32,530 nucleotides of DNA. Source: Candidatus Gastranaerophilales bacterium. Its GTDB lineage: Bacteria; Cyanobacteriota; Vampirovibrionia; Gastranaerophilales; Gastranaerophilaceae. Both the position numbers and the translations under genes were made by a program. The notes under the pieces are model-generated. The model searched no databases. It saw only the letters and a program-made list of their open reading frames with translations, and was not told where the DNA came from. Where the stretch lies: the NCBI GenBank assembly GCA_944324215.1, contig CALUVP010000115.1, positions 1-32,530 on the forward strand, in the 5' to 3' direction. Position 1 is the first letter of the stretch. Each line of letters begins with the position of its first letter. Of the stretch, positions 1,471 to 29,761 are shown in pieces.

Positions 1471-1773
1471 TTAAGATTTTCTAAAGAAGCTTTTAATTTT
1501 ATCAAAACCAGCAATTCCTGCTGTTAGGAGAGTAACTCCTCCAAAGATCTTAAAATACATTGATTTGTTAAAATCGTGTTTTGATTTTTCTTTTTGGGCA
1601 CCTTCGTAAATATCGTTGTTGATACTATTAATTTTCGTATTGGCTTCTTTTTCTGAGAATAATTTATGTTTTGGCAAAACAACAGGTGCTTCTGCAACTT
1701 CTCTTGCAGGATTCTTCACTTTTGTTTGCGTGGAATAGTGACTTTCCAGAATATTATTTCTAATTTCACTCAT
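1471..1773 (-). CDS. Hypothetical protein, 100 aa, C-terminal hydrophobic segment
   Basis: I do not recognise the family. The first 70 residues are polar and charged. They are followed by one hydrophobic stretch (about residues 73-90, beginning FKIFGGVTLLTAG) and a basic tail ending FFRKS, which looks like a C-terminal tail anchor. The start codon follows directly on the TAG stop of the upstream GNAT-like gene with no intervening base, which suggests translational coupling and a shared operon. The distant GT5-like protein at 2697-5354 also ends in a hydrophobic segment, so membrane attachment through the C-terminus may be a theme here; that is inference. The tight coupling makes it likely to be a real gene. 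Confidence 0.7.
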   Translation of the reverse strand: MSEIRNNILESHYSTQTKVKNPAREVAEAPVVLPKHKLFSEKEANTKINSINNDIYEGAQKEKSKHDFNKSMYFKIFGGVTLLTAGIAGFDKIKSFFRKS

Positions 1774-2403
1774 CTAGAATAATTCTCCATATCTTAAAAG
1801 TTTGTGAAGCCGGCTTTTAGGTAAATACATCATTCCTACCTGAGCCGGAATATCGGGTATTTTTTTGTTAATACATTCCTCCATATATTGGTTCGCCTCC
1901 GGACTTGTAAACCTAAATCCGAGTTTATAAAAGAACAGCGCAGGCGATGACTCCTTGACTATTGGTGCTGAAAAAGTTACAATCCTGCCTTCCGCCTTGT
2001 TATCAAACATAGCCTTTTCTGCCAAATTTTTGATAGCTTCACTTCCAAGACCGCATCTTGGTTTTGGAGATTGTATATAATCGATAATATAACAGTTTTT
2101 AAGATACTTAATTTTACGTTTTAATACTGGTAAACTGTATTCTGAAGATGTGAAGAAATTACTACCTCCAGAATCATAAATGCTTTCTTCTATTGTATCT
2201 ACATAATCGTCATCGATTTCTCCGGGAATAATTATGTTGTCTCCCCTTTTAATTTTTTTGACACGAATTTGCGCCTTTTCCTTGAGAGGAATTGATTTGA
2301 ACCCCAAAATCGGGGGCATACTAAAGCTTGAGAGCGATGGCGTAGGTTTAGCTACAGCCATCTGTGGACGCATGTCCACGGTTGTCGTAATATTGTTAAT
2401 CAT
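1774..2403 (-). CDS. GNAT-like acetyltransferase-fold protein with N-terminal GFKS motif
   Basis: A 209-residue protein. Residues about 105-165 resemble the core of a GNAT N-acetyltransferase: a strand ending YIIDYIQSP, a GLGSEAIKNL segment in the place of the acetyl-CoA pyrophosphate loop (R/Q-x-x-G-x-G/A), and FFYKLGFRF, the typical C-terminal 'FYxxxGF' element. The pyrophosphate loop reads KPRCGLGSEA, which fits. The substrate cannot be deduced. The first 30 residues are low-complexity (Ser/Thr/Pro/Met) and lead into ILGFKS at residues 32-37, similar to motifs in the proteins at 2697-5354 and 28256-29761. It is divergent from the GT5-like gene across a 293-bp gap and appears co-transcribed with the 100-aa gene downstream. 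GNAT assignment is moderate; the N-terminal extension is unusual for GNATs. Confidence 0.65.
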   Translation of the reverse strand: MINNITTTVDMRPQMAVAKPTPSLSSFSMPPILGFKSIPLKEKAQIRVKKIKRGDNIIIPGEIDDDYVDTIEESIYDSGGSNFFTSSEYSLPVLKRKIKYLKNCYIIDYIQSPKPRCGLGSEAIKNLAEKAMFDNKAEGRIVTFSAPIVKESSPALFFYKLGFRFTSPEANQYMEECINKKIPDIPAQVGMMYLPKSRLHKLLRYGELF

Positions 2404-13076: not shown

Positions 13077-14177
13077 TTATAAATAATTAAGCAAACTCAT
13101 TCCCATAGAGGCAGATGAAACCTGTAAGCTTGCTTGATACGCGTACTGTGCCATATACCAATCAGTAATTGCTGTTGTTATATCAACGTCTCGAATTTCT
13201 GATAAATAAGCTGTTAAATTTGTATTATTTGTATCAAGTGTGGAAGTAGTCATTTCTAAACGATTATAGACACCACCAAATTTAGTTTGTTCTTCGGTTA
13301 TCATTTTCATAGATGAATCAAACATATCTAATGTAGAATTCATTTGTTCATAACCAGCTTCAGTGTCACCATCCAGAATCATTTGTATAGAATTGCTCAA
13401 AAGTTTCATAGCACCCATAACGCCAGAGTACTCTTCGCTTGCCACTGAGACTTTCAAGTCAGCTGTATCACCATTGTATGTTGTGCCGTCTTCATAAGCA
13501 TAAGTCTTACTTCCGTCAGCTTCTACTGTTTCTATAACTTTTTTACCGTCAGCATCTGTGAAAACATTTTTGCCGTCTGCTGTCTGTTCTTGAATTGCTT
13601 TATAATAACCAAATACCCTGTCGCCGGTAGTATTTATTATTTCAAAAACTCCATCCGCTACTTCTGTTTGTCTTATGTAATCGGGATTATCATAAGGTGT
13701 TCCGTTGTAAATTATATTTCCGTTTTCATCTATTGTATATGGTGTGGTTTTAGTATTTGCGCCACCAAAAATGTAATTATCATTATATTCGGTGTTGGCA
13801 AGATCCACCATTGTTTTTATGGTTTCGTCTATTTCTACTTTTATAGCCTCTAATGAATCATTGCCATAAGTTTGGTTACTAGCTTGCACAGCTTTATCCC
13901 AAACAGAGGATAAATAACCTGTAGCTAAGCTCATTAAATCATCAAGTGTGCTTAATTCACTTTTTGCCATCTCAACATTGGTTGAAAATGTGTCGATTTG
14001 TCCTAGCTGCCTGTTAGTATTTATGATATTAACAGCTGCAATGGGATCATCAGTTATGTTCATAACTTTATGACCGGAAGTTAGCTGTGCTGTAATTTTA
14101 TTGTAGTTAATAAGGTTTTGTTGCATATCAGCAACGAGTTGAGAGTATTTACCGCTAGTTGAAATTCTATCTACCAT
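13077..14177 (-). CDS. flgL: Flagellar hook-associated protein 3 (FlgL)
   Basis: FlgL forms the second ring of the hook-filament junction, outside the cell, and is exported through the flagellar type III apparatus without a cleaved signal. The 366-aa product has a flagellin-like N-terminal helix (YNKITAQLTSGHKVMNITDDPIAAVNI) and a matching C-terminal helix (MAQYAYQASLQVSSASMGMSLLNYL), the coiled-coil D0/D1 parts. The middle (about residues 180-250), containing TADGKNVFTDADGKK, looks like a variable exposed domain. It starts four bases after the flgK stop and is the last gene of the operon, before two hairpins. The start has a GGAGGTTAG-like ribosome site overlapping the flgK end. Confidence 0.93.
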   Translation of the reverse strand: MVDRISTSGKYSQLVADMQQNLINYNKITAQLTSGHKVMNITDDPIAAVNIINTNRQLGQIDTFSTNVEMAKSELSTLDDLMSLATGYLSSVWDKAVQASNQTYGNDSLEAIKVEIDETIKTMVDLANTEYNDNYIFGGANTKTTPYTIDENGNIIYNGTPYDNPDYIRQTEVADGVFEIINTTGDRVFGYYKAIQEQTADGKNVFTDADGKKVIETVEADGSKTYAYEDGTTYNGDTADLKVSVASEEYSGVMGAMKLLSNSIQMILDGDTEAGYEQMNSTLDMFDSSMKMITEEQTKFGGVYNRLEMTTSTLDTNNTNLTAYLSEIRDVDITTAITDWYMAQYAYQASLQVSSASMGMSLLNYL

Positions 14178-14181
14178 AAAA

Positions 14182-15792
14182 CTAACCTCCTAGTGTCATT
14201 AAAGTGTCTAAACAAGCATTACAAGTGTTGAAAACCTGTGCTGCTGCAGAATATGCCGTTTGATATTTCACTAAATCGACCAGTTCTTCGTTTATGTCAA
14301 CTCCTGTTGCATCCTTAATTTTTGATTCCACCGAATCAACAACTGATGACTGCGTATCATAAAGAGTTTGTAAACTGCTTCCTGCTGAAGCGATTTTACC
14401 AACCATTGATGTATAAAAATCTTCTATAGACATTCCGTTTAAAGAATCTTGTTTTGTGTTTCTTGTGCCCAACATTGCTGCAACGTTTTGAGCGTTACCT
14501 ACGGCATTTTCGTCAAAGTTTGCACCATCCTCAAAATAAGCGCAGGATATATTCCAAATCCCGTCTTCTGTTAATAATTCAGGATTAAGTTGGATATTAC
14601 CGGCTGTAATTCCGTTTGTTACAATATTCCCATCAGCATCTGTTGTGACAAATATAAAGTTATCATCCGGACTGTCTATTAATTTCCCAGTATCATCTGG
14701 ATTAATGCAATATGCGCCTTCTCTTGTATTTAATTCATTGAAAATATCTGCTACTGTTTGTGCTAATTTATTAAGGCTATTCATAACCGTTCCGGCATTT
14801 GTTTCGCCATCTACTGCTGTCGCCGAATGTAACATTCCTCCAAGAGTTCCTTCCGTAATAATTGAATTCGCGTTTGCCATTACAACAGCTCCGTCTTCCT
14901 CTGGATTTATAATACTGATAACAGCATTTTCTCCATCCCAGTCATCAGGATAAGCAATTGGTGGATTCTGTGATTCACAATAATCTTTTGCAGTCTGAAT
15001 ATCAAGTTCTCCAACAACTTTTGCGCCCCTTACAAGATCAACATTTCCTATTGAAACTCTTACTGCACCATTGTGAATTTCTTCGACATTAATGTCTACA
15101 AATTGAGCAATATCGTTTAAAATTAAATCACGTTTGTCCAATAAATTATTTGCTTCTAATGTTCCTGTTTGTGTTACCATTAGAGCTCTGTTAACATCTG
15201 CCAATTCTGCTAATTTGTCATTTAATGCAGAATATTGAACATATATTTGCGAACTTTCTAAAGCACTTTGTGATTTACCATCTCCAAGAACTTTTGTTGT
15301 TAGTTGTTCTAATTCGATACTTTTAGAGTTCATTGTAGAAACCAAGGTTTTTGCTGTTTCTATAAAGTTTGTTCTAGCAGTAGAACTTGCAGGATATTCG
15401 TTTAAGTTGTTTAATGCTTCATAAAAATCTGACAATGCTGCATCAAGTCCTTCTCCTTCTAAATCATCGAAAATGTTTGCCAAATCTCCTATTGCATCTA
15501 GCTGTTGATCGAGAGTGTTAAGGTGAGAAAGTTGCTCTCTATAGTAATTATTTAAGTATTCGTCATTATAACGCATTACATTTGCTATCATAACACCACC
15601 GTTGGCACGGATCTGGTTATTTACATTATCTCCGATGGCGCCAGCAATATTTCTTGTTGCTAGATTTACGCGTTGTTTGTGATACCCTTCTGTATTCATG
15701 TTTGCAACGTTATGTGAAACAACACTTATTGCTTTCTCGTTTACAGAAAGTGTATTCGCTGTCATATTTAATGATGATAACAAACTTGCCAT
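14182..15792 (-). CDS. flgK: Flagellar hook-associated protein 1 (FlgK)
   Basis: FlgK is the first junction protein between hook and filament. The 536-residue product carries the rod/hook-family N-terminal motif (VVSHNVANMNTEGYHKQRV, residues about 24-42) and the C-terminal helix (LVDLVKYQTAYSAAAQVFNT) characteristic of FlgK. The central D2/D3 region is divergent. Length is in the normal FlgK range. It is followed immediately by flgL and preceded by the flgN-like chaperone, the usual order in many bacteria. An 8-bp perfect hairpin (TAATCAAA / TTTGATTA, 15831-15848) sits in the 58-bp gap between flgN and flgK. Confidence 0.95.
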   Translation of the reverse strand: MASLLSSLNMTANTLSVNEKAISVVSHNVANMNTEGYHKQRVNLATRNIAGAIGDNVNNQIRANGGVMIANVMRYNDEYLNNYYREQLSHLNTLDQQLDAIGDLANIFDDLEGEGLDAALSDFYEALNNLNEYPASSTARTNFIETAKTLVSTMNSKSIELEQLTTKVLGDGKSQSALESSQIYVQYSALNDKLAELADVNRALMVTQTGTLEANNLLDKRDLILNDIAQFVDINVEEIHNGAVRVSIGNVDLVRGAKVVGELDIQTAKDYCESQNPPIAYPDDWDGENAVISIINPEEDGAVVMANANSIITEGTLGGMLHSATAVDGETNAGTVMNSLNKLAQTVADIFNELNTREGAYCINPDDTGKLIDSPDDNFIFVTTDADGNIVTNGITAGNIQLNPELLTEDGIWNISCAYFEDGANFDENAVGNAQNVAAMLGTRNTKQDSLNGMSIEDFYTSMVGKIASAGSSLQTLYDTQSSVVDSVESKIKDATGVDINEELVDLVKYQTAYSAAAQVFNTCNACLDTLMTLGG

Positions 15793-15850
15793 TGTTTACC
15801 TCTTTTTTTCTTGAAGCACTACTTAAGAACTAATCAAAACTTTGATTATC

Positions 15851-16348
15851 CTAAACTTCTTCATTTATGGTCCACATGTCATATTCATGTGTGTCTGTCT
15901 TGCCTGCTCCGTTATAATTACATCCTTGAGGAGCAAATGCATCTATAATTGTTTCCAACATCTTGTTAGATATTACGATGCCATGTTTTAGCAGTTCCAC
16001 ATTTTGATTATTTAATAACGTTAATTCGGGAATTATTTTACAAATCTTTACTTTTCTCTCCTCTAAAGCATTTACATATTCCGGCGCTTCGTTTGTTGCA
16101 AACTCTATGAATCCGGACATATTAGTGTCTTTGCCAAACATTTTAATAGCCAGTTCTTTCCTTGATTCATTAAGCTTACTTATTTCATTATTAAGAGCAA
16201 GAATTTTGTTGTCTAATACTCCCAAATCATCTGGCTTAGACTTCTTTAAAGTTTCCTTCTTTTCTTCAAAGAGAATCTTCAGTTTTGAATAAGCTGTAAT
16301 TATTTTATCCAATATTTCTATTAAATTCTTAAATGCTTTTTTATCCAT
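15851..16348 (-). CDS. flgN: FlgN-like flagellar export chaperone
   Basis: FlgN proteins bind FlgK and FlgL in the cytoplasm and deliver them to the export gate. This 165-residue product is nearly all helical: residues 1-40 (FKNLIEILDKIITAYSKL) and a long coiled coil (LNNEISKLNESRKELAIKMFG). Its end (LLKHGIVISNKMLETIIDAF, then a Tyr-x-x-x-G-like NYNGAG) fits the FlgN C-terminal pattern in which hydrophobic helix residues bind clients. A longer frame to 16510 would overlap flgH; the ATG at 16348 has AAAGGA five bases upstream and leaves a normal 37-bp gap after flgH, so I choose it. Position directly before flgK-flgL supports the assignment. Sequence similarity in FlgN is low, so the call rests on architecture plus context. 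Confidence 0.72.
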   Translation of the reverse strand: MDKKAFKNLIEILDKIITAYSKLKILFEEKKETLKKSKPDDLGVLDNKILALNNEISKLNESRKELAIKMFGKDTNMSGFIEFATNEAPEYVNALEERKVKICKIIPELTLLNNQNVELLKHGIVISNKMLETIIDAFAPQGCNYNGAGKTDTHEYDMWTINEEV

Positions 16349-16385
16349 TTTATCCTTTAATTTTCTTTTTACACTGTTAGTTATA

Positions 16386-16994
16386 CTAGAACAGATATTT
16401 AACAAATCTGTTGAAGATACCTTCGTTCTGGTTTCTGGAGATTGCGCCTCTGCCTGATAGAGCAAATTGTAGGTTAGAAACATTGTACGAATAAATTTCT
16501 CCGTTAGCATTCAACCACCTAGGGTCAACAACTCCTGTTACTATAAAATCCATTCTTTCATTACCGTTTACAAGAGTCTTTTTGCCTTGTACTGCTAAAT
16601 TCCCGTTAGGAAGCTGTTGGACAACTTGTACTGCGATCTGATCGCCAAATGTTAAACTTCTACCCCCTGTTGCTGAATTTGCAACTTCATTTGTTCCGCC
16701 AAAACCGTTAGCATCCTTAAGAGATAAGCCTAACCACTTATTGATAAATGTTGTAAAAGTATCAACAGTATTTGAAGATTTTTCTGATGAGTAGGTCAAA
16801 CTATCATTTACAGAGATATTCTCTTGCATAATTATTGATATCAAATCTCCGATTTGGTGAGCTTGAACTCCCCCAAATAAAGATCTTGGTACACCTGCAT
16901 AATTTTGGGTTGCTCCAAGTGTAAACAATGATTCTGCATTTACGCAAATTGTTGTCATCATAAGTATTGCAATTATTGTTAACACCTTTTTCAT
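16386..16994 (-). CDS. flgH: Flagellar L-ring protein FlgH
   Basis: FlgH forms the outer-membrane L ring around the flagellar rod. The 202-aa product has a signal peptide (MKKVLTIIAILMMTT...VNA), then GDLISIIMQENISVNDSLTY, GGRSLTFGDQIAVQVVQQLPNGNLAVQGKKTLVNGN and VVDPRWLNANGEIYSYNVSNL, all matching the family, and a C-terminal GIFNRFVKYLF. Most FlgH proteins are lipoproteins with an L-x-G/A-C box; here the only nearby cysteine is preceded by Ile (TIC), so a lipobox is not evident and cleavage after VNA by signal peptidase I seems likelier. The gene proves a diderm envelope. It lies in the operon between a small hypothetical gene and flgN. Confidence 0.93.
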   Translation of the reverse strand: MKKVLTIIAILMMTTICVNAESLFTLGATQNYAGVPRSLFGGVQAHQIGDLISIIMQENISVNDSLTYSSEKSSNTVDTFTTFINKWLGLSLKDANGFGGTNEVANSATGGRSLTFGDQIAVQVVQQLPNGNLAVQGKKTLVNGNERMDFIVTGVVDPRWLNANGEIYSYNVSNLQFALSGRGAISRNQNEGIFNRFVKYLF

Positions 16995-17021
16995 ATTTTA
17001 ATCCTCAAGTCCCTATTTTTT

Positions 17022-17300
17022 TTAGCAAAGAAATTCTGCTATAACACTTCTACCGTATAATAGACCGTACTTTATGTCATCATCTGAAATGTTGAATTCA
17101 CCTACAGCCTTTGCGCACTCTCTCAATTCATTTACGTCAATTCTTTCAAGAAGAGTTTTGGCGTTATTCGACTCAGTGCCGCCTGAAACTTCTTTTGTTT
17201 CTGCTCCTTCATTATTTTTAGGAAGAGTTTGTGCTGATTTGAAAGCACTTAATGCACTGAATTGTTGTACTGAATTATTTTGTCCTATTGATGATAACAT
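17022..17300 (-). CDS. Hypothetical protein inside the flagellar operon, 92 aa
   Basis: I do not recognise the family. The N-terminal half is polar and low complexity (Ser, Asn, Gln, Glu); the C-terminal part, from about residue 50, is likely helical and distinctive: LLERIDVNELRECAKAVGEF followed by NISDDDIKYGLLYGRSVIAEF. The gene lies 12 bp after the flgJ-like gene and 27 bp before flgH, on the same strand, so a flagellar role is likely. A disordered start and a helical end are reminiscent of FlgM-type anti-sigma factors, and the size fits, but I do not see a convincing FlgM signature. A small structural or regulatory flagellar factor is the safest statement. Confidence 0.65.
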   Translation of the reverse strand: MLSSIGQNNSVQQFSALSAFKSAQTLPKNNEGAETKEVSGGTESNNAKTLLERIDVNELRECAKAVGEFNISDDDIKYGLLYGRSVIAEFLC

Positions 17301-17312
17301 TATGTCCCCTTA

Positions 17313-17663
17313 TTAGTTAACGTATTTTTCCATTTGTCTGTAAATTTGGTCCGCAAATCCGAATGATGTTCTAGGATTGTTTGCAATATCTCGTCCCATT
17401 TGTTGATAAACTACTGATTTAAAAGTATCTACATATTGACTTTCTTTACCAAATAATCCGTTTTCTCTATCTACGGTTTTGTCCATTTCTGATAACATTT
17501 TGGTTATGAATATTGATTCAAATTCTGTTGCAGCCTTTCTTAATTGCTCTTTGGAATCTCCGGATTCTTTAATTCTGTTATATAGAACTTGATCCGAGTT
17601 TACTGTCTGAGCATTATTTAACCCATTTTTTATTAAATCTATTGCAGGTGTTGAAAAATCCAT
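17313..17663 (-). CDS. flgJ: Rod-binding FlgJ N-terminal-domain protein
   Basis: A 116-residue protein matching only the N-terminal half of FlgJ, the scaffold or cap needed to assemble the rod. The diagnostic segment is LRKAATEFESIFITKMLSEM followed by FGKESQYVDTFKSVVYQQMG and GFADQIYRQMEKYV. The C-terminal muramidase domain found in enterobacterial FlgJ is absent; a separate lytic transglycosylase gene (21751-22299) is in the same cluster and may provide the wall-cutting activity. It starts 16 bp after flgI, in the order flgI-flgJ that is common in many phyla. There is no signal peptide, as expected for cargo of the flagellar export system. Confidence 0.88.
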   Translation of the reverse strand: MDFSTPAIDLIKNGLNNAQTVNSDQVLYNRIKESGDSKEQLRKAATEFESIFITKMLSEMDKTVDRENGLFGKESQYVDTFKSVVYQQMGRDIANNPRTSFGFADQIYRQMEKYVN

Positions 17664-17679
17664 TCTTTTTCTTCCCTCT

Positions 17680-18783
17680 CTATATGATTACTAAATCTGC
17701 TTGCAAGCTTCCTGATTTTTTAAGTGCTTGAAGTATTGAAATTAAGTCAACTGGAGCCACCCCGATTGCGTTCAAAGCTCTTACTAAATCATTAAGGTTG
17801 CTGTTTGCAGGCATTGTAACTAAACTTCCAGGTGTCTTATTTATCTCAATGTCTGCATTTTCAAAACCAACTGTTGCTCCGTTTGCGAAAGCATTTGGTT
17901 GTGAAACTTCGTTTGTCGTAGAAACGGTTACAGTTATATTACCGTGTGCTACGGCTGCAGGAAGTAGTTTTACGTCTGCTCCGATTACTACTGTACCTGT
18001 TCTTTCATTTACTACGACTTTCGCTTTATCCATAGTCGGTGATACTTCCAAGTTCTCTACTATTGATAAAAAGTTTACTCTATCATTCATAAATCTTGCA
18101 GGAATTTCTACTCTAACAGAGCTTCCGTCAATTGCTTGTGCCGGTGCTACTTGTGATACGGTCTTTGCAATTCTTGATACAAGCGTGTAGTCAGAACGAT
18201 CAATAGAAAGTGTTATTGAATTTTCATCTCCGATTTCTGTATAAATATCACGTTCAATTATTGCGCCACCAGGTATTCTTCCTGTTGTTGTGATTGCTGT
18301 TCTGGCAGAAGATCCTCCTGCAGCTTTATTAATACCTCCTACTGATAAAGGTCCTTGTGCTACTGCTACTGCTTCTCCGTTTGGAGCTTTAAGAATAGTT
18401 TGGACAAGAACACCGCCTTCTAAGCTCTTACAGTCTGCCATTGCTGAAACAGTTACATCAATTTTGTCACCGTTTTTCGCAAATGGAGGAACTGTTGCTG
18501 TTACTATTACTGCTGCTGAAGCTCCTTTTTGAATGTAGTTTTCTTGTTCAATTACTGTACCAAGGTTTCTTAATAACATTTGGTTTGTAATCTGTGTTGA
18601 ACGGGAATTATCACCTGTTCCGGGTAGACCAACAACGACACCATATCCTACTAACTGGTTTTCTCTAACACCTTTTATATGTGTTAAATCGACGATTCTT
18701 ACTTTTGCATCAATAGCGCTAGCAGGCAATAACCCCCCTATAATCAACATCATTATTAATAAAACCGATAATACTTTTTTCAT
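17680..18783 (-). CDS. flgI: Flagellar P-ring protein FlgI
   Basis: FlgI forms the periplasmic P ring bound to peptidoglycan. The 367-aa product begins with a clear signal peptide (MKKVLSVLLIMMLIIGGLLP, then ASA) and continues with VRIVDLTHIKGVRENQLVGY, GVVVGLPGTGDNS, QMLLRNLG, the SAMADCKSLEGGVLVQT region, and LNDLVRALNAIGVAPVDLIS near the C-terminus, all highly typical of the family. It is the first gene after the repeat-filled 575-bp gap, so it probably has its own promoter there; a 7-bp hairpin (18805-18824) and an element shared with slt (18850-18868) precede it. Length agrees with the family. Confidence 0.96.
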   Translation of the reverse strand: MKKVLSVLLIMMLIIGGLLPASAIDAKVRIVDLTHIKGVRENQLVGYGVVVGLPGTGDNSRSTQITNQMLLRNLGTVIEQENYIQKGASAAVIVTATVPPFAKNGDKIDVTVSAMADCKSLEGGVLVQTILKAPNGEAVAVAQGPLSVGGINKAAGGSSARTAITTTGRIPGGAIIERDIYTEIGDENSITLSIDRSDYTLVSRIAKTVSQVAPAQAIDGSSVRVEIPARFMNDRVNFLSIVENLEVSPTMDKAKVVVNERTGTVVIGADVKLLPAAVAHGNITVTVSTTNEVSQPNAFANGATVGFENADIEINKTPGSLVTMPANSNLNDLVRALNAIGVAPVDLISILQALKKSGSLQADLVII

Positions 18784-18804
18784 AATACTTAACCGCTTTC
18801 TTTC

Positions 18805-18824
18805 AGGATTACATGAATAATCCT
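18805..18824 (-). promoter_or_regulatory. Hairpin in the flgI leader
   Basis: AGGATTA (18805-18811) pairs perfectly with TAATCCT (18818-18824) around the loop CATGAA. It lies about 20 nt upstream of the flgI start and may influence ribosome loading or mRNA stability. No T-run follows it. Confidence 0.4.
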
Positions 18825-18849
18825 TAAGAACATACCTTCCCCATTAAAA

Positions 18850-18868
18850 GTCTACATTGTATAGTTTA
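18850..18868 (-). promoter_or_regulatory. Conserved element upstream of flgI (copy 1)
   Basis: On the minus strand this reads TAAACT, four bases, AATGTAGAC, and is followed by TTTTAAT, GGGG and AAGGTATG. An equivalent arrangement occurs upstream of slt at 22370-22387. It lies about 66 nt before the flgI start. It could be a flagellar promoter or activator site; the TAAA resembles the -35 of sigma28 promoters, but I see no convincing sigma28 -10 box. Confidence 0.4.
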
Positions 18869-18960
18869 AAGCATCGAGCAGGATAAAACATCAATCATAT
18901 GGAGGAAATCTTGCCGGGGTGGGTGTATTTGTTGTTTTCTCGGTATGTTTTAAAGAGAAT

Positions 18961-19265
18961 TTATTCCCTCCTTTGAAAATGGAGCGGATTTAAGACAGGG
19001 TTGGGGTGGGGTTAATAAAGATTCCGAAATGAATTCGGAATGACAAAAAATCTTTTTTAAGATACTTCAAACTATTTATATACAAGCTCCCCTCCCCTTG
19101 AGGGAGGGGGATTGGGGGTGGGGTTAATAAAGATTCCGAAATGAATTCGGAATGACAAACAATCCTTTTTAAGATACTTCAAGCTATTTAGATACAAACT
19201 TCCCTCCCTTTGAAGGGGAGGGTTAGGGTGGGGTGGAATAATCCTGAAATAAATTCAGGATGACA
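18961..19265. repeat. Three-copy intergenic repeat array (units about 108-112 bp) with paired hairpins and G-runs
   Basis: This fills most of the 575-bp gap between flgA and flgI. Each unit has a C-rich/G-rich arm (for example CCCCTCCC, loop, GGGAGGGG at 19089-19109), a G-run tract ending GGGGTGGGG, and a short hairpin. The hairpins lie at 19021-19041 and 19133-19153 (stem ATTCCGAA/TTCGGAAT) and 19241-19261 (stem ATCCTGAA/TTCAGGAT). The first two share the following sequence (GACAAA..., AAGATACTTCAA) and are 112 bp apart; the third is 108 bp further on. The third stem differs by two base-pair changes that keep pairing. A degenerate G-rich remnant lies near 18914. It looks like a dispersed REP- or MITE-like palindromic element expanded in tandem. 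No ORF is supported in this gap. Confidence 0.85.
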
Positions 19266-19358
19266 TAATAACCCACAATCTATATAAATTCAAGCAAAGT
19301 TTAATAAATTTCAAATCAAGTTCAAAATGGTGTTTTAATTTATCCCTAAATATTTACC

Positions 19359-20063
19359 CTATATATTTACCATTACTTTGTTTTCACCGATTACTTTGCC
19401 GTTATAGACTTTTTTGTAGTTTTTGTTTTCAACATCAATGTAATCGCCGCACATTCCATCATCCATTGCTGTACCATCTACGGATACCATTACTGCGTCA
19501 TTTGATACGAAAAATATTCTAACTTCACCGTTTCTTACGACATCAGGGCGCATTTTGACAAATCTTCTGTCTATTACTTCGCCTTTTTGAAATGCTTTTT
19601 TTGATGACATTTCTTTTTCAAGAGATTTTTCTGTTAGTATGTAATCCATTTTCATTGAGACATCTATCTTTTTTACTGATACATTGTCTTTTGTAAGTGT
19701 TTGTTCTCTGTTTATAAAGTCATTTGCTACTAAGACTTCTTTGTAAATATTTGTTTGAACAGGAAGATTTAGAGTCTTAATAAATGCACTGTTTACATAT
19801 ACATCAACTCTTTTTATATCTCTTGGAACTATTTTATCTCCTCCTGAGACGATTTTATACTGGATTTTACCGTTAGGCAGCTGAAGTGTCGCAAAAGGTG
19901 TTCCAGTTACTTTTACTTCAACATCTCCATTTGAAATTTTTTTGTAGTTTTCTGTTAGTATTTTTGCAACAGAAGCTTTAACATCAGACGATGTAACAAC
20001 TTGGGCATTACTCCCAAGTGCTGTCAACATTAATATTAAAGCCGTTGCAAAATACTTTTTCAA
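19359..20063 (-). CDS. flgA: Flagellar P-ring assembly chaperone FlgA
   Basis: FlgA is a periplasmic chaperone for polymerisation of FlgI into the P ring. The 234-aa product has a signal peptide (MKKYFATALILMLTALGSNA) and a SAF-type domain starting near VPVQTNIYKEVLVANDFINR (approximate; the visible stretch is NLPVQTNIYKEVLVANDFI), followed by LTKDNVSVKKID, KKAFQKGEVIDRRFV and the late segment VRIFFVSNDAVMVSVDGTAM, with a final GKVIGENKVMV. These are the typical features of the C-terminal FlgA domain. It follows flgG by eight bases and is the last gene before the repeat array, where the transcript probably ends or is weakened. The pairing with flgI next door fits. Confidence 0.88.
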   Translation of the reverse strand: MKKYFATALILMLTALGSNAQVVTSSDVKASVAKILTENYKKISNGDVEVKVTGTPFATLQLPNGKIQYKIVSGGDKIVPRDIKRVDVYVNSAFIKTLNLPVQTNIYKEVLVANDFINREQTLTKDNVSVKKIDVSMKMDYILTEKSLEKEMSSKKAFQKGEVIDRRFVKMRPDVVRNGEVRIFFVSNDAVMVSVDGTAMDDGMCGDYIDVENKNYKKVYNGKVIGENKVMVNI

Positions 20064-20071
20064 TTTATCAC

Positions 20072-20857
20072 CTATGACATGTTATTTGTTAATTGCAAGA
20101 TGTTGCTTGAAGAGTTAATTATTTTTGAGTTTGATTCAAATGCTCTTTCTGCTTTAATTAAGCCTACAAGTTCATCTACGATTTGAACGTTAGAACCTTC
20201 AAGCATGCCTTGTTGAATTAAACCAAGACCGTTTTGTCCAGGTGTATCCTGAACAGGGTTTCCTGAAGCTTGTGTTTCTTTATAAAGGTTGTGACCGATT
20301 GATAAAAGTCCTGATGGGTTTTGGAATTTTACCAATTGAAGCGAACCTACAATTGATTGTTGAGTTTGTCCCGGAAGTGTTACAGATATGTTACCGTCTT
20401 GAGTAATAGTAATTTCTGTAGCATCACGTGGAATTGATACTGATGGCTGGATTAAAAGACCATCATTTGTACAAAGCTGACCAAGTGAATCAACTTGTAA
20501 ACAGCCATCTCTGGTATAAGCTAATGAACCGTCTTCTTTCATTACTTGTAAGAAGCCTTCGCCTTCAATTTCAATATCGAGTTGGCGTCCGGTTGATATT
20601 GCTACACCTTGAGTGAATACACGGGTCGTAGCTGCTGTTTTTACACCAAGTCCGATTTCTATACCTACAGGTTGGTATGTACCTTGGTTCATTAATGCAC
20701 CAGGCGTTCTTTGTGCTTGGGATAGCAAATCTTGAAATTCTATTCTTGATTGCTTAAACGCTGTTGTGTTTACGTTTGCAACGTTGTTCGCAATTACGTC
20801 AAGATAGTTCTGCTGTGCTATCATACCTGTTGCTGCTGTTGTTAATGCTCTTAACAT
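20072..20857 (-). CDS. flgG: Flagellar distal rod protein FlgG
   Basis: FlgG builds the distal rod that crosses the periplasm. The 261-aa product has the canonical rod/hook family N-terminus (LTTAATGMIAQQNYLDVIAN, then NVANVNTTAFKQSR), the middle LDIEIEGEGFLQV and the C-terminal QQGMLEGSNVQIVDELVGLI and RAFESNSKII elements. The length of about 260 residues is typical of FlgG and distinguishes it from hook protein FlgE. It follows flgF after 63 bp and is followed by flgA. AGGAGAGA before the ATG supports the start. Confidence 0.94.
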   Translation of the reverse strand: MLRALTTAATGMIAQQNYLDVIANNVANVNTTAFKQSRIEFQDLLSQAQRTPGALMNQGTYQPVGIEIGLGVKTAATTRVFTQGVAISTGRQLDIEIEGEGFLQVMKEDGSLAYTRDGCLQVDSLGQLCTNDGLLIQPSVSIPRDATEITITQDGNISVTLPGQTQQSIVGSLQLVKFQNPSGLLSIGHNLYKETQASGNPVQDTPGQNGLGLIQQGMLEGSNVQIVDELVGLIKAERAFESNSKIINSSSNILQLTNNMS

Positions 20858-20920
20858 TTTACTTTATCTCTCCTAATTTAGTCTGGTAACCGTTACTCCA
20901 GTGACGATTTCCCTTTTATT

Positions 20921-21751
20921 TTATGAATTTCTTATCCTGCCCAATGATACTGCTGTTGTTAACATTTCGCTGTTTGTGCTTACGACTTTTGTTAAACTTT
21001 CATAATTTCTTGTCGTATTTATTGTGTTAATCATTTCTCTTATTACATTTGAATTTGAAAGCTCTAACATTCCCTGTTGTAAAGAAAACTTTTCTGAACG
21101 TAATTCAGGATTGTTTATTGTATCACGAGGTATGAACTTGGCATCTCCTATTTCAAATAAATCATCTTTGTCTGAAAAGTCCCATACCCCGATTGTTTGT
21201 AATGGGATTTTTTGGTTGTATGAATTTATTTCAATATTACCGTTTTCTGCAATAACTATATCTTTTCTGTCTCTAAACGCTGTTTCATCTTCCATATCAT
21301 AAGGTAGCATTCTGATTCTTCTGTTATCAACATCAAGAACGTATTCTCCCTGCTTTGTTTTTAGCCAATATCCATTATCTACAACAAAAGAACCGTTTCT
21401 TGTGTATGAAATGTTTCCCTCTGTATCTTGAATTTTGAAAAATCCATCTCCTTCTATTGCTACATCATAAGGATTTGATGTTTTTGTCAAAGCACCTTGT
21501 GAAAAATCATGAGTGTATTGCATACTAGCACTTCCTACACTTAAACTTCCTAAGTAATTATTTTCATTTGTATTTCTTATTATTGAACCCTCTTGTGAAT
21601 ATACAGCTGATTGCATTATGTCCTTAAATCTTAATGAACCTTTTTTGTACCCTACTGTATTTACGTTTGCAAGGTTATTTGCTGTATTATCATTCATATC
21701 CATTAAAGCATTCATACCATTTGCGGCAGCTTCAAAACTTCTTACTATCAT
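20921..21751 (-). CDS. flgF: Flagellar proximal rod protein, FlgF-like
   Basis: A 276-residue protein of the rod/hook family that precedes flgG and is best assigned as FlgF. It has the family motif NNLANVNTVGYKKGSLRFKD (about residues 25-44), VAIEGDGFFKI in the middle and LQQGMLELSNSNVIREM near the end, shared with FlgG. The central part differs from FlgG (KTKQGEYVLDVDNRRIRM). A second FlgG-like copy is the alternative, as FlgF and FlgG often look alike; the gene order flgF-flgG favours FlgF. Its ATG overlaps the stop of slt by one base (TAATG), indicating coupled translation. Confidence 0.83.
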   Translation of the reverse strand: MIVRSFEAAANGMNALMDMNDNTANNLANVNTVGYKKGSLRFKDIMQSAVYSQEGSIIRNTNENNYLGSLSVGSASMQYTHDFSQGALTKTSNPYDVAIEGDGFFKIQDTEGNISYTRNGSFVVDNGYWLKTKQGEYVLDVDNRRIRMLPYDMEDETAFRDRKDIVIAENGNIEINSYNQKIPLQTIGVWDFSDKDDLFEIGDAKFIPRDTINNPELRSEKFSLQQGMLELSNSNVIREMINTINTTRNYESLTKVVSTNSEMLTTAVSLGRIRNS

Positions 21752-22299
21752 TAGTTAGCTCCTTTCATATGGTCATAATTGCTCAAAACTTTTTTTACAT
21801 AATTTTGGGTTTCCGCATAAGGTGGAATTCCGCCGTATTTCTTTACTGCATTAGGCCCTGCATTGTATGCTGCAAGGGCTAAAGACTTGTTATTATCAAA
21901 CCTGTCCATTAAACCTTTTAAGTATTTTGTTCCGCCCATAATGTTTTGTTCCGCATCATAAGCATTTGTTACTCCAAGACCTTCTGCTGTTGAAGGCATT
22001 AATTGCATCAAGCCCATTGCTCCGCATTTTGATGTAGCATTTGGATTAAATCCTGACTCTTGCGTAATTACAGCTTTTACAAAATCTGAGTCTAGACCGT
22101 TTTTTTCTGCATACTTGTCTATCAAACCCTCAATTTCCGCTCTTGAAGCATTGCTTGTATTATTGTGGCTTGATATTGAGGTATCAAGAATTTTTTGGAA
22201 GTCAGCATCAGGTTTTGGCCCCAAAGACATAAGGGTTTGAAATTGTTTTTCAATCGTATTGATACGTTGTAAAGTTATGTCTAAACCCGTAAGATTCAT
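21751..22299 (-). CDS. Lytic transglycosylase (SLT domain) in the flagellar cluster
   Basis: A 182-residue protein with a complete SLT (GH23) domain: VITQESGFNPNATSKCGAMG, with Glu81 as the catalytic acid; MGLMQLMPSTAEGLGV; GGTKYLKGLMDRF; and LALAAYNAGPNAVKKYGG. It cleaves peptidoglycan, probably making room for the rod. No N-terminal signal peptide is visible: the first 50 residues are polar (LDITLQRINTIEKQFQTLM). It may therefore leave the cell through the flagellar type III route, as FlgJ-type muramidases do; this is inference. It heads the slt-flgF-flgG-flgA unit and overlaps the flgF start by one base. FlgJ in this cluster lacks its own enzyme domain, so slt is the likely partner. Confidence 0.88.
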   Translation of the reverse strand: MNLTGLDITLQRINTIEKQFQTLMSLGPKPDADFQKILDTSISSHNNTSNASRAEIEGLIDKYAEKNGLDSDFVKAVITQESGFNPNATSKCGAMGLMQLMPSTAEGLGVTNAYDAEQNIMGGTKYLKGLMDRFDNNKSLALAAYNAGPNAVKKYGGIPPYAETQNYVKKVLSNYDHMKGAN

Positions 22300-28255: not shown

Positions 28256-29761
28256 TTAACCCCTGTTTTTTCTGGCTTTCCTTTCTGTAATTTTGGCGTT
28301 CATCATCGGGAGCAATATCCCTAAAGTAATTGCAGAATATGCTATACCGGAAGCGTGTGCAAGGTTTAATTTCCACATATTTTTCTTTGCAAAAACTTCG
28401 CCTTTTGATGCAATTTCGTTATGTGTTTTTAATGCCATATCATTAAGCCAATGTTTTAAACCTTTACCTTCCTTTTGGTAATTAAATAAATTTTTGCCGC
28501 TTTTATCTAAAAGATTTGCAACACCTTTAGCCGCAAAACCGCCAAATACAAGCCAGTTTAAGAAGCCCAAATAATCTCTTGTCATTGATTCTCTCAACTC
28601 TGTTCCGTTATCTGCTGCCATAAATCTTCCGATTATATTTGCGGCATAAACGGTTTTGATTGCATTCCCACTTGTTATCGGTCCTGTAAATTCAAGTTTT
28701 TTTGCGAATTGCTTGAAGTTTTTTACACCCATTACACTGAATACCATTCCTGCCATAAGTGCACTTGCACCAAGCTTCTTTAAAATTAGTAATTTGTCTT
28801 TTTTCTGTTCGCCTCTAAATGTAGAAGTGTAATCGACATCACCCACAAAGCCTTTCTTACCTGTCCTTTTTTCTGTTATTTTTCTATTAATCCACTGATT
28901 TGTAAGCCCTAAAACACAAGATGCTGAAATAGCACCAAAGGCTTTAATTTTATTTACGCGTGAAATCTTATTAATTGCTTGTTCTATTTCCTTATTACTT
29001 TTCTTTGTAAAAATATCTTTTGCCATATCGTGTGTATCACGCAAAATATTTTCTAATTTGGCAGAAAGTTTAGTCCCATCAATATTTAATTCAGTATCAC
29101 GTTCCGCACCCAGAGCATTTGTTAGACGTTTTTCAATAATTGAGAGAGCGAATTTTTTATCATCTTTTGTTATGTTTTTGTCTTTTATAAGTTTTTTAAG
29201 AGTCTTTATAAAACCTTCTTCTGTTTTTAATTCATTTTGAATTCCTTTGTTCTCCGGATTGTTCCACTTGATTTTATCCCATCTGGCTTCATCAATCCAT
29301 TCAACTTTTTTCCAGTTTATGTCTTTGAAATGATTTGTTTTCATTCCATCTCTGCCTGAAATGTTTTCAAGAACAGTTTTTATGTATTTATCAAGATTTC
29401 CGCTTTTCTCCCAAGCTTTATTCAAGGTCTCTAAAGATTCTTGTGTGTACCAGCTGTCAGGGTTGATTTTTACCTCGGGTTCTACTCGTCTAGATGCAAT
29501 TTTTGAAATACCCATTGCAAATAAGCCAGCTGAAAGACAATTGATGAAAGTTCCACTAATTTCTCTTATAAAAGTTTCGGCACCTGCAAATTCATTTCGA
29601 GCTTTTGTATCATAATATGCTCTTGGAACAACCATAGCTCCGACATCAAGACCAACAGCATTGACCATTTCATTCATGTCACAGGTTCTCAAAATCCCTG
29701 TTACAGCTCCATCTAAGGGTCCTTTGAATCCAATGTTGCTATTTATATTGCTAATTTTCAT
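28256..29761 (-). CDS. Membrane protein of unknown function with N-terminal GFKG motif, 501 aa
   Basis: I do not recognise the family. The N-terminus, MKISNINSNIGFKGPLDGAV, has the same MKI start and F-K-G motif as the GT5-like protein (2697-5354), and matches the GFKS of the GNAT-like protein. Several hydrophobic segments are visible: about residues 70-90 (FINCLSAGLFAMGISKIA), 275-290 (AFGAISASCVLGLTNQWI), 333-350 (LGASALMAGMVFSVMGV), 405-420 (FLNWLVFGGFAAKGVANL) and near the end (GIAYSAITLGILLPMM). Between them is a charged helical region (residues about 100-265). No signal peptide is evident. A membrane-remodelling or structural role is possible but unproven. It has its own promoter and a leader of about 175 nt with a potential hairpin. 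AAAGGAT precedes the ATG. Confidence 0.7.
   Translation of the reverse strand: MKISNINSNIGFKGPLDGAVTGILRTCDMNEMVNAVGLDVGAMVVPRAYYDTKARNEFAGAETFIREISGTFINCLSAGLFAMGISKIASRRVEPEVKINPDSWYTQESLETLNKAWEKSGNLDKYIKTVLENISGRDGMKTNHFKDINWKKVEWIDEARWDKIKWNNPENKGIQNELKTEEGFIKTLKKLIKDKNITKDDKKFALSIIEKRLTNALGAERDTELNIDGTKLSAKLENILRDTHDMAKDIFTKKSNKEIEQAINKISRVNKIKAFGAISASCVLGLTNQWINRKITEKRTGKKGFVGDVDYTSTFRGEQKKDKLLILKKLGASALMAGMVFSVMGVKNFKQFAKKLEFTGPITSGNAIKTVYAANIIGRFMAADNGTELRESMTRDYLGFLNWLVFGGFAAKGVANLLDKSGKNLFNYQKEGKGLKHWLNDMALKTHNEIASKGEVFAKKNMWKLNLAHASGIAYSAITLGILLPMMNAKITERKARKNRG

Follow-up and report, generated by a model that had tools for sequence, protein, structure and literature searches.

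A 32,530-nt contig (CALUVP010000115.1; the whole of it is referred to as the window) from a Candidatus Gastranaerophilales genome of 2.07 Mb in 176 contigs encodes three unrelated proteins that share a short phenylalanine-containing motif, the F-motif, near their N termini. The F-motif makes up the latter half of a bipartite N-terminal tag, and the same short front-end tag is found on dozens of otherwise unrelated proteins in gut melainabacteria, which are non-photosynthetic relatives of the cyanobacteria. The tag is widespread in Gastranaerophilales and conserved in orthologs, and the case for a sorting signal is strong, its existence being shown statistically. Among the sorting, processing, and tethering roles that a first-pass annotation of the window had offered, export is favored, and there is about an even chance that the F-motif is the second half of a signal that sends its carriers to a second type III export gate, distinct from the flagellar one and here called FlhA-2.

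Translation placed the motif in all three window proteins exactly where the first-pass annotation had it: ILGFKS at residues 32 to 37 of a 209-amino-acid (aa) GNAT-like protein, ISFKG at residues 38 to 42 of an 885-aa GT5-like protein, and NIGFKG at residues 9 to 14 of a 501-aa membrane protein. The interval to which it had been assigned, 1774 to 2403, covers the GNAT-like gene and leaves the other two motif proteins outside. Two of the three proteins do start with MKI, the 501-aa protein with MKISNIN, and the GNAT-like protein starts with MINNI. The Ser/Asn/Thr/Pro stretch said to precede the motif is also present in all three, being weakest in the GT5-like protein. Residues of the latter were counted from the ATG at 2697; the open reading frame (ORF) as listed begins at an upstream TTG, and its orthologs begin with MKINA.

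The tag has a defined anatomy. First, a start-anchored element, M-x-[I/V]-x-x-[I/V]-[N/S], places Ile or Val near residues 3 and 6. Second comes a disordered linker in which Asn, Ser, Thr, Gln, and Pro abound and whose length varies. Third, the F-motif, [S/N]-F-[K/G/N/Q/S]-[G/A/S], stands just ahead of the folded domain. Across 11 GNAT-like orthologs, no substitution occurs at residues M1 to I5, I32, F35, or K36, and the intervening linker varies. In 31 members of the 501-aa family, comprising the 501-aa protein and others 24 to 74% identical to it, the motif Phe (F12) is at least 90% conserved, and the leader of GT5-like orthologs is preserved at its two ends (e.g., MKINA and ISF[KR]G). Consistent trends were seen in a set of 60 carrier families, chosen partly by eye and with the positions around the Phe as part of the selection: Ile occupied position 3 in 30 families (7 expected) and position 6 in 18 (8 expected), Asn occupied position 7 in 19 (4.4 expected), the −1 residue was Ser or Asn in 41, and the +2 residue was Gly (28), Ala (14), or Ser (12) in 54. 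AlphaFold2 gave residues 1 to 41 of the GNAT-like protein a predicted local distance difference test score (pLDDT) below 50, with the first strand starting at residue 45. The 501-aa protein had a mean pLDDT of 84, with residues 1 to 12 below 50 and a folded domain soon after. Some proteins bear the F-motif twice near the N terminus (L133:12098-14362, L134:9300-9575, and L182:11596-13932).

The N-terminal enrichment over background that the first-pass annotation had set beforehand as the test of its proposal was present both in a pattern enumeration and in family-collapsed counts. Proteins were read, with mechanical ORF calls, from parts of five genomes: the window's own genome, one of the same genus, one of another family in the order, and two added later; the FlhA-less genomes (families f8 and f13) lie outside these protein-level counts. 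The enumeration, which was given no motif in advance although it was provided with residue groups such as [GAS], compared residues 4 to 55 with the remainder of the same proteins in three Gastranaerophilales genomes, and FK[GAS] emerged as the top N-terminally enriched pattern (51 seen versus 21.4 expected; P = 4e-8). When the 1,875 ORFs of the five genomes were reduced to a single representative of each sequence family, 5.5% of N termini and 2.5% of internal stretches contained FK[GAS] (P = 2.5e-7), whereas 8.2% and 3.0%, respectively, contained [NSTPQ]F[KGNTRQS][GAS], whose classes were widened post hoc (P = 1.6e-14). The two halves of the tag are also linked. A start element picked after reading the matches, M..[IVL]xx[IV][NGSTQ], co-occurs with the F-motif (odds ratio [OR], 4.4; P = 1.8e-7), whereas internal F-motifs are not associated with that element (OR, 1.02). 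This linkage, together with the enrichment, supports the earlier proposal of a sorting, processing, or tethering signal. Finally, a fixed tag filter was passed by 46 of 1,097 ORFs in the three Gastranaerophilales genomes compared to 8 of 1,405 in FlhA loci of other phyla (∼4% versus 0.6%; OR, 7.6; P = 3e-10), a ratio that is indicative only, the filter having been tuned on Gastranaerophilales and the comparison loci being flagellar neighborhoods of different base composition. A width-6 unsupervised expectation-maximization search did not converge on the motif, the signal being too sparse; a first DNA pattern for the tag gave no match, and a second was too weak per genome.

These counts bear on the simplest alternative, that Asn/Ser-rich N termini in AT-rich genomes combine with a common tripeptide by chance. 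Single matches are indeed weak, and 14% of internal stretches 51 residues long contain F[KGNTRQS][GAS]. However, the enrichment survives family collapse, the two-part linkage has a null internal control, residues are invariant among orthologs, and there is a ∼7-fold excess over other phyla, so that a chance origin is very improbable. It is refuted for the motif as a class, although individual carriers may still be chance matches.

The leaders resemble type III secretion signals. Published effector signals favor Ile at position 3 and have polar, weakly charged N termini with few acidic residues (PMC2668754), and export of early flagellar substrates needs a hydrophobic N terminus plus a spaced docking motif (PMC8983047). 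When proteins were selected only by an F-motif at residues 13 to 60 and their first 12 residues were scored, the motif predicted Ile3 (OR, 3.0; P = 1.3e-3), Ile or Val at position 3 (OR, 3.7; P = 1.8e-5), Ile, Leu, Val, or Pro at position 3 or 4 (OR, 2.3), absence of Asp and Glu from residues 2 to 12 (OR, 2.1; P = 8.7e-3), and Ile or Val at position 3 combined with the absence of acidic residues (OR, 4.7; P = 6e-5). Internal F-motifs served as a control and showed no link to these N-terminal features, Ile3 enrichment included. For Asn5, Ser/Gly8, and Ser9, which also belong to the effector signal, the ORs were 1.7, 2.1, and 1.3 (P = 0.21, 0.06, and 0.55), respectively. The leaders are polar, acid poor, and disordered, disorder being taken from the two modeled proteins. 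The first part of the tag fits the published type III features of Ile3, few acids, and polarity, and it is because the first 12 residues of F-motif proteins show these features that export via FlhA-2 is favored. The same features argue against an export or processing signal for some other machine (a type IV, contractile injection, or unknown system), possibly cleaved after F-x-[GAS]. The small +2 residue shortly ahead of the folded domain does resemble a cleavage site, though it was partly selected for, and a type IV system has been proposed for the related Vampirovibrio (PMC4451040); on balance, such a machine is rather unlikely.

A candidate gate for FlhA-2-mediated export is present almost throughout the order: nearly every genome keeps a second export gate (FlhA-2, FliP, and FlhB), even without flagellar FlhA. 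In a search of 192 genomes, with the two types distinguished by score, FlhA best matched the flagellar FlhA-1 in 71, only FlhA-2 was found in 119, and neither was found in 2. Among 12 genomes tested for FliP and FlhB, those with FlhA-1 had two copies of each and those without it had one full-length copy. A good example is the non-flagellated genome G028, which lacks FlhA-1 and has a single full-length FlhA and single copies of FliP and FlhB. Its second system comprises FliE, FliF, FliH, FlhA-2, a FliMN-type protein, FliO, FliP, FliQ, and FliR; the export gate set FlhA, FliP, FliQ, FliR, and FlhB is present for the second system, and the basal ring and sorting platform (FliF/SctJ, FliH/SctL, and FliN/SctQ) have Pfam matches in G028. 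The second system may be flagellum derived, because the FliE model fits better than YscI in this genome. In a maximum-likelihood tree (midpoint rooted, injectisome sequences not included), FlhA-2 and Caenarcanales FlhA formed one clade (100/100) apart from FlhA-1 and from flagellar FlhA of other phyla. FlhA-2 relatives with 58 to 66% identity occur in Vampirovibrionia families f9, f14, and f15. In named collections, the closest FlhA-2 relatives are largely Candidatus Gastranaerophilales metagenome-assembled genomes, with several uncultured-bacterium labels and one Acinetobacter; among those with informative titles, this group predominates, and the host group to which the first-pass annotation had pointed was therefore right. 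In the literature searched, no paper, as judged by title and abstract, connected a non-flagellar type III system with Melainabacteria or Gastranaerophilales.

Two further observations concern FlhA and its surroundings. Nearly all of the listed genomes, with or without flagella, encode a ∼495-aa protein that lacks the membrane part of FlhA and resembles the cytoplasmic half alone (e.g., L154:10491-11966, minus strand, and L156:8888-10369, plus strand). A 2,807-aa ORF with EF-hand-, LysM-, and FHA-like stretches recognized by eye (L017:864-9287, plus strand) lies near the FlhA-2 gene of the window's own genome.

In the proposed mechanism, carriers without Sec leaders would go to the second, non-flagellar type III gate (FlhA-2/FliPQR/FlhB), where the N-terminal hydrophobic part of the tag would act at the gate and the F-motif would dock the substrate or a chaperone; tagged carriers would thereby be exported. 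The 501-aa family is present in FlhA-2 families f1, f9, and f15 and is not listed in f8 or f13. Several points weigh against this reading. First, in f14 FlhA-2 is present and the 501-aa family was not found, four f12 genomes without clear FlhA-2 gave weak matches to the family, and its co-distribution with FlhA-2 is confounded by phylogeny. Second, tag genes are not clustered beside FlhA-2, where 1 of 126 ORFs bore the tag. Third, a DNA pattern for the tag, applied across the class, did not set FlhA-2 genomes apart from the rest and showed an excess also in the FlhA-less f8 (ratio of 1.8 versus 2.4 in f1), with a poor reversed-pattern control, because gene starts are not symmetric. Fourth, the recognition motif of the flagellar gate has the form FxxxPhi, which the tag does not follow: a hydrophobic residue is at +4 in 37% of the 60-family set versus 30% in background. 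This last point also tells against export by the flagellar gate FlhA-1. The window does have a flagellar gene cluster and a FlgM-like possible carrier, yet the tag is also borne by G028, which has no FlhA-1. Export by FlhA-1 is largely refuted by these carriers, and we consider it extremely improbable.

The carriers themselves are mixed, and they too give grounds for doubt. Most of those scanned singly had no Pfam domain; the domains found included GT5, GNAT, AAA, M16 peptidase, DEAD helicase, CheR, SLT, CHAP, alpha/beta-hydrolase (lipase-like), and dual-specificity phosphatase (PTP-like), with a sub-threshold PARP-like match. Several carriers are of types typical of exported proteins and others are not, the DEAD helicase, AAA, and GT5 carriers being unusual export cargo. 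Such cytosolic-type roles, along with the short conserved peptide and flexible linker, are what would be expected if the leader were an intracellular tether that, in the manner of encapsulation peptides, holds enzymes of many kinds and membrane proteins at a single scaffold or compartment. However, the best-conserved residue, the Phe, adjoins the folded domain rather than the free end, the first residues bear published type III signal features, and the peptidoglycan hydrolase-like carriers (SLT and CHAP) suit action outside the cytoplasm. A tether is rather unlikely. Export through the FlhA-2 gate is the reading we infer. The broader claim, that an undescribed type III-type system of the FlhA-2 lineage exports ∼50 to 80 tag-recognizable proteins per genome in Gastranaerophilales and relatives, is tentative, with chances somewhat short of even. 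About eight tag-bearing genes lie within one 20-kb stretch of genome G016 (L133:1100-16400).

Table 1. Motif proteins and neighboring features of the window
Feature	Position	Strand	Remarks
GNAT-like protein, 209 aa	1774..2403	−	Leader MINNI...(linker)...PPILGFKS, residues 1-37; from translation and ortholog alignment
ILGFKS codons, residues 32-37 of the GNAT-like protein	2293..2310	−	Computed from translation; residue 1 ends at base 2403, residue 32 is 2308-2310, residue 37 is 2293-2295
GT5 glycogen synthase-like protein, 885 aa	2697..5354	+	Leader MKINAIG...VISFKGG, residues 1-43; C-terminal hydrophobic segment
Helical membrane protein, 501 aa, multi-copy family	28256..29761	−	Leader MKISNINSNIGFKG, residues 1-14
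100-aa protein without the motif	1471..1773	−	Hydrophobic segment at the C terminus; immediately follows the GNAT-like gene
FlgM-like protein, 92 aa	17022..17300	−	Starts MLSSIGQNNSVQQFSALSAFKS; possible carrier, tentative

The window proteins differ in how far they can be assigned (Table 1). The GT5-like protein has a partial glycogen synthase domain (PF08323; E value, 9e-8), and a Pfam scan found no domain in the GNAT-like or the 501-aa protein. Foldseek matches to the model of the 209-aa protein were mostly GNAT proteins at weak E values (0.05), and the GNAT-like fold is a weak assignment. The model of the 501-aa protein, a confident helical fold, had no significant match in the PDB or a viral fold library. 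Its family is multi-copy and often tandem (window 28256-29761; locus L164:10895-14243). Counterparts of the 100-aa protein adjoin the GNAT-like gene in genus relatives too. Positions 13077 to 22299 hold the flagellar cluster, with hook, ring, rod, FlgM-like, and lytic transglycosylase genes named by eye; it is consistent with the presence of FlhA-1 in the same genome. The FlgM identity comes from position in this cluster and sequence style only.

The tag shares features with several known systems and differs from each. It is like the early flagellar rod/hook signal in its hydrophobic extreme N terminus, flexible linker, lack of a Sec leader, and further short element, tens of residues downstream, that contains a hydrophobic residue; in FlgD, the bipartite signal consists of hydrophobic residues 2 to 5 and a gate recognition motif at 36 to 40 (PMC8983047). 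However, where that signal has the flagellar gate motif the tag has [SN]-F-x-[GAS], its carriers are enzymes and membrane proteins, and it occurs also where the flagellar gate is absent. It is like type III effector signals (SIEVE; PMC2668754) in Ile3, polarity, and few acidic residues, and unlike them in that dozens of families share F-x-[GAS]. The non-flagellated bacterium Lysobacter enzymogenes retains flagellar export components, with a reported role in twitching control (PMC7277350); flagellar-type export genes are likewise kept there without flagella, whereas the second gate of Gastranaerophilales forms an FlhA clade of its own and, in some genomes, is found alongside flagella. Like the encapsulation peptides of microcompartments, which are short N-terminal peptides with linkers on unrelated proteins, the tag is a short peptide plus linker on unrelated proteins; those peptides are amphipathic helices, whereas the tag leader is predicted to be disordered. 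To our knowledge, type III effector signals have no fixed downstream motif in common, and type III export signals are usually recognized by loose composition rules only. If the proposed route is true, a near-fixed Phe tag would make the secretome readable from sequence in a common, almost uncultured gut group, and an order-wide second gate, retained where the flagellar gate was lost, calls for such cargo.
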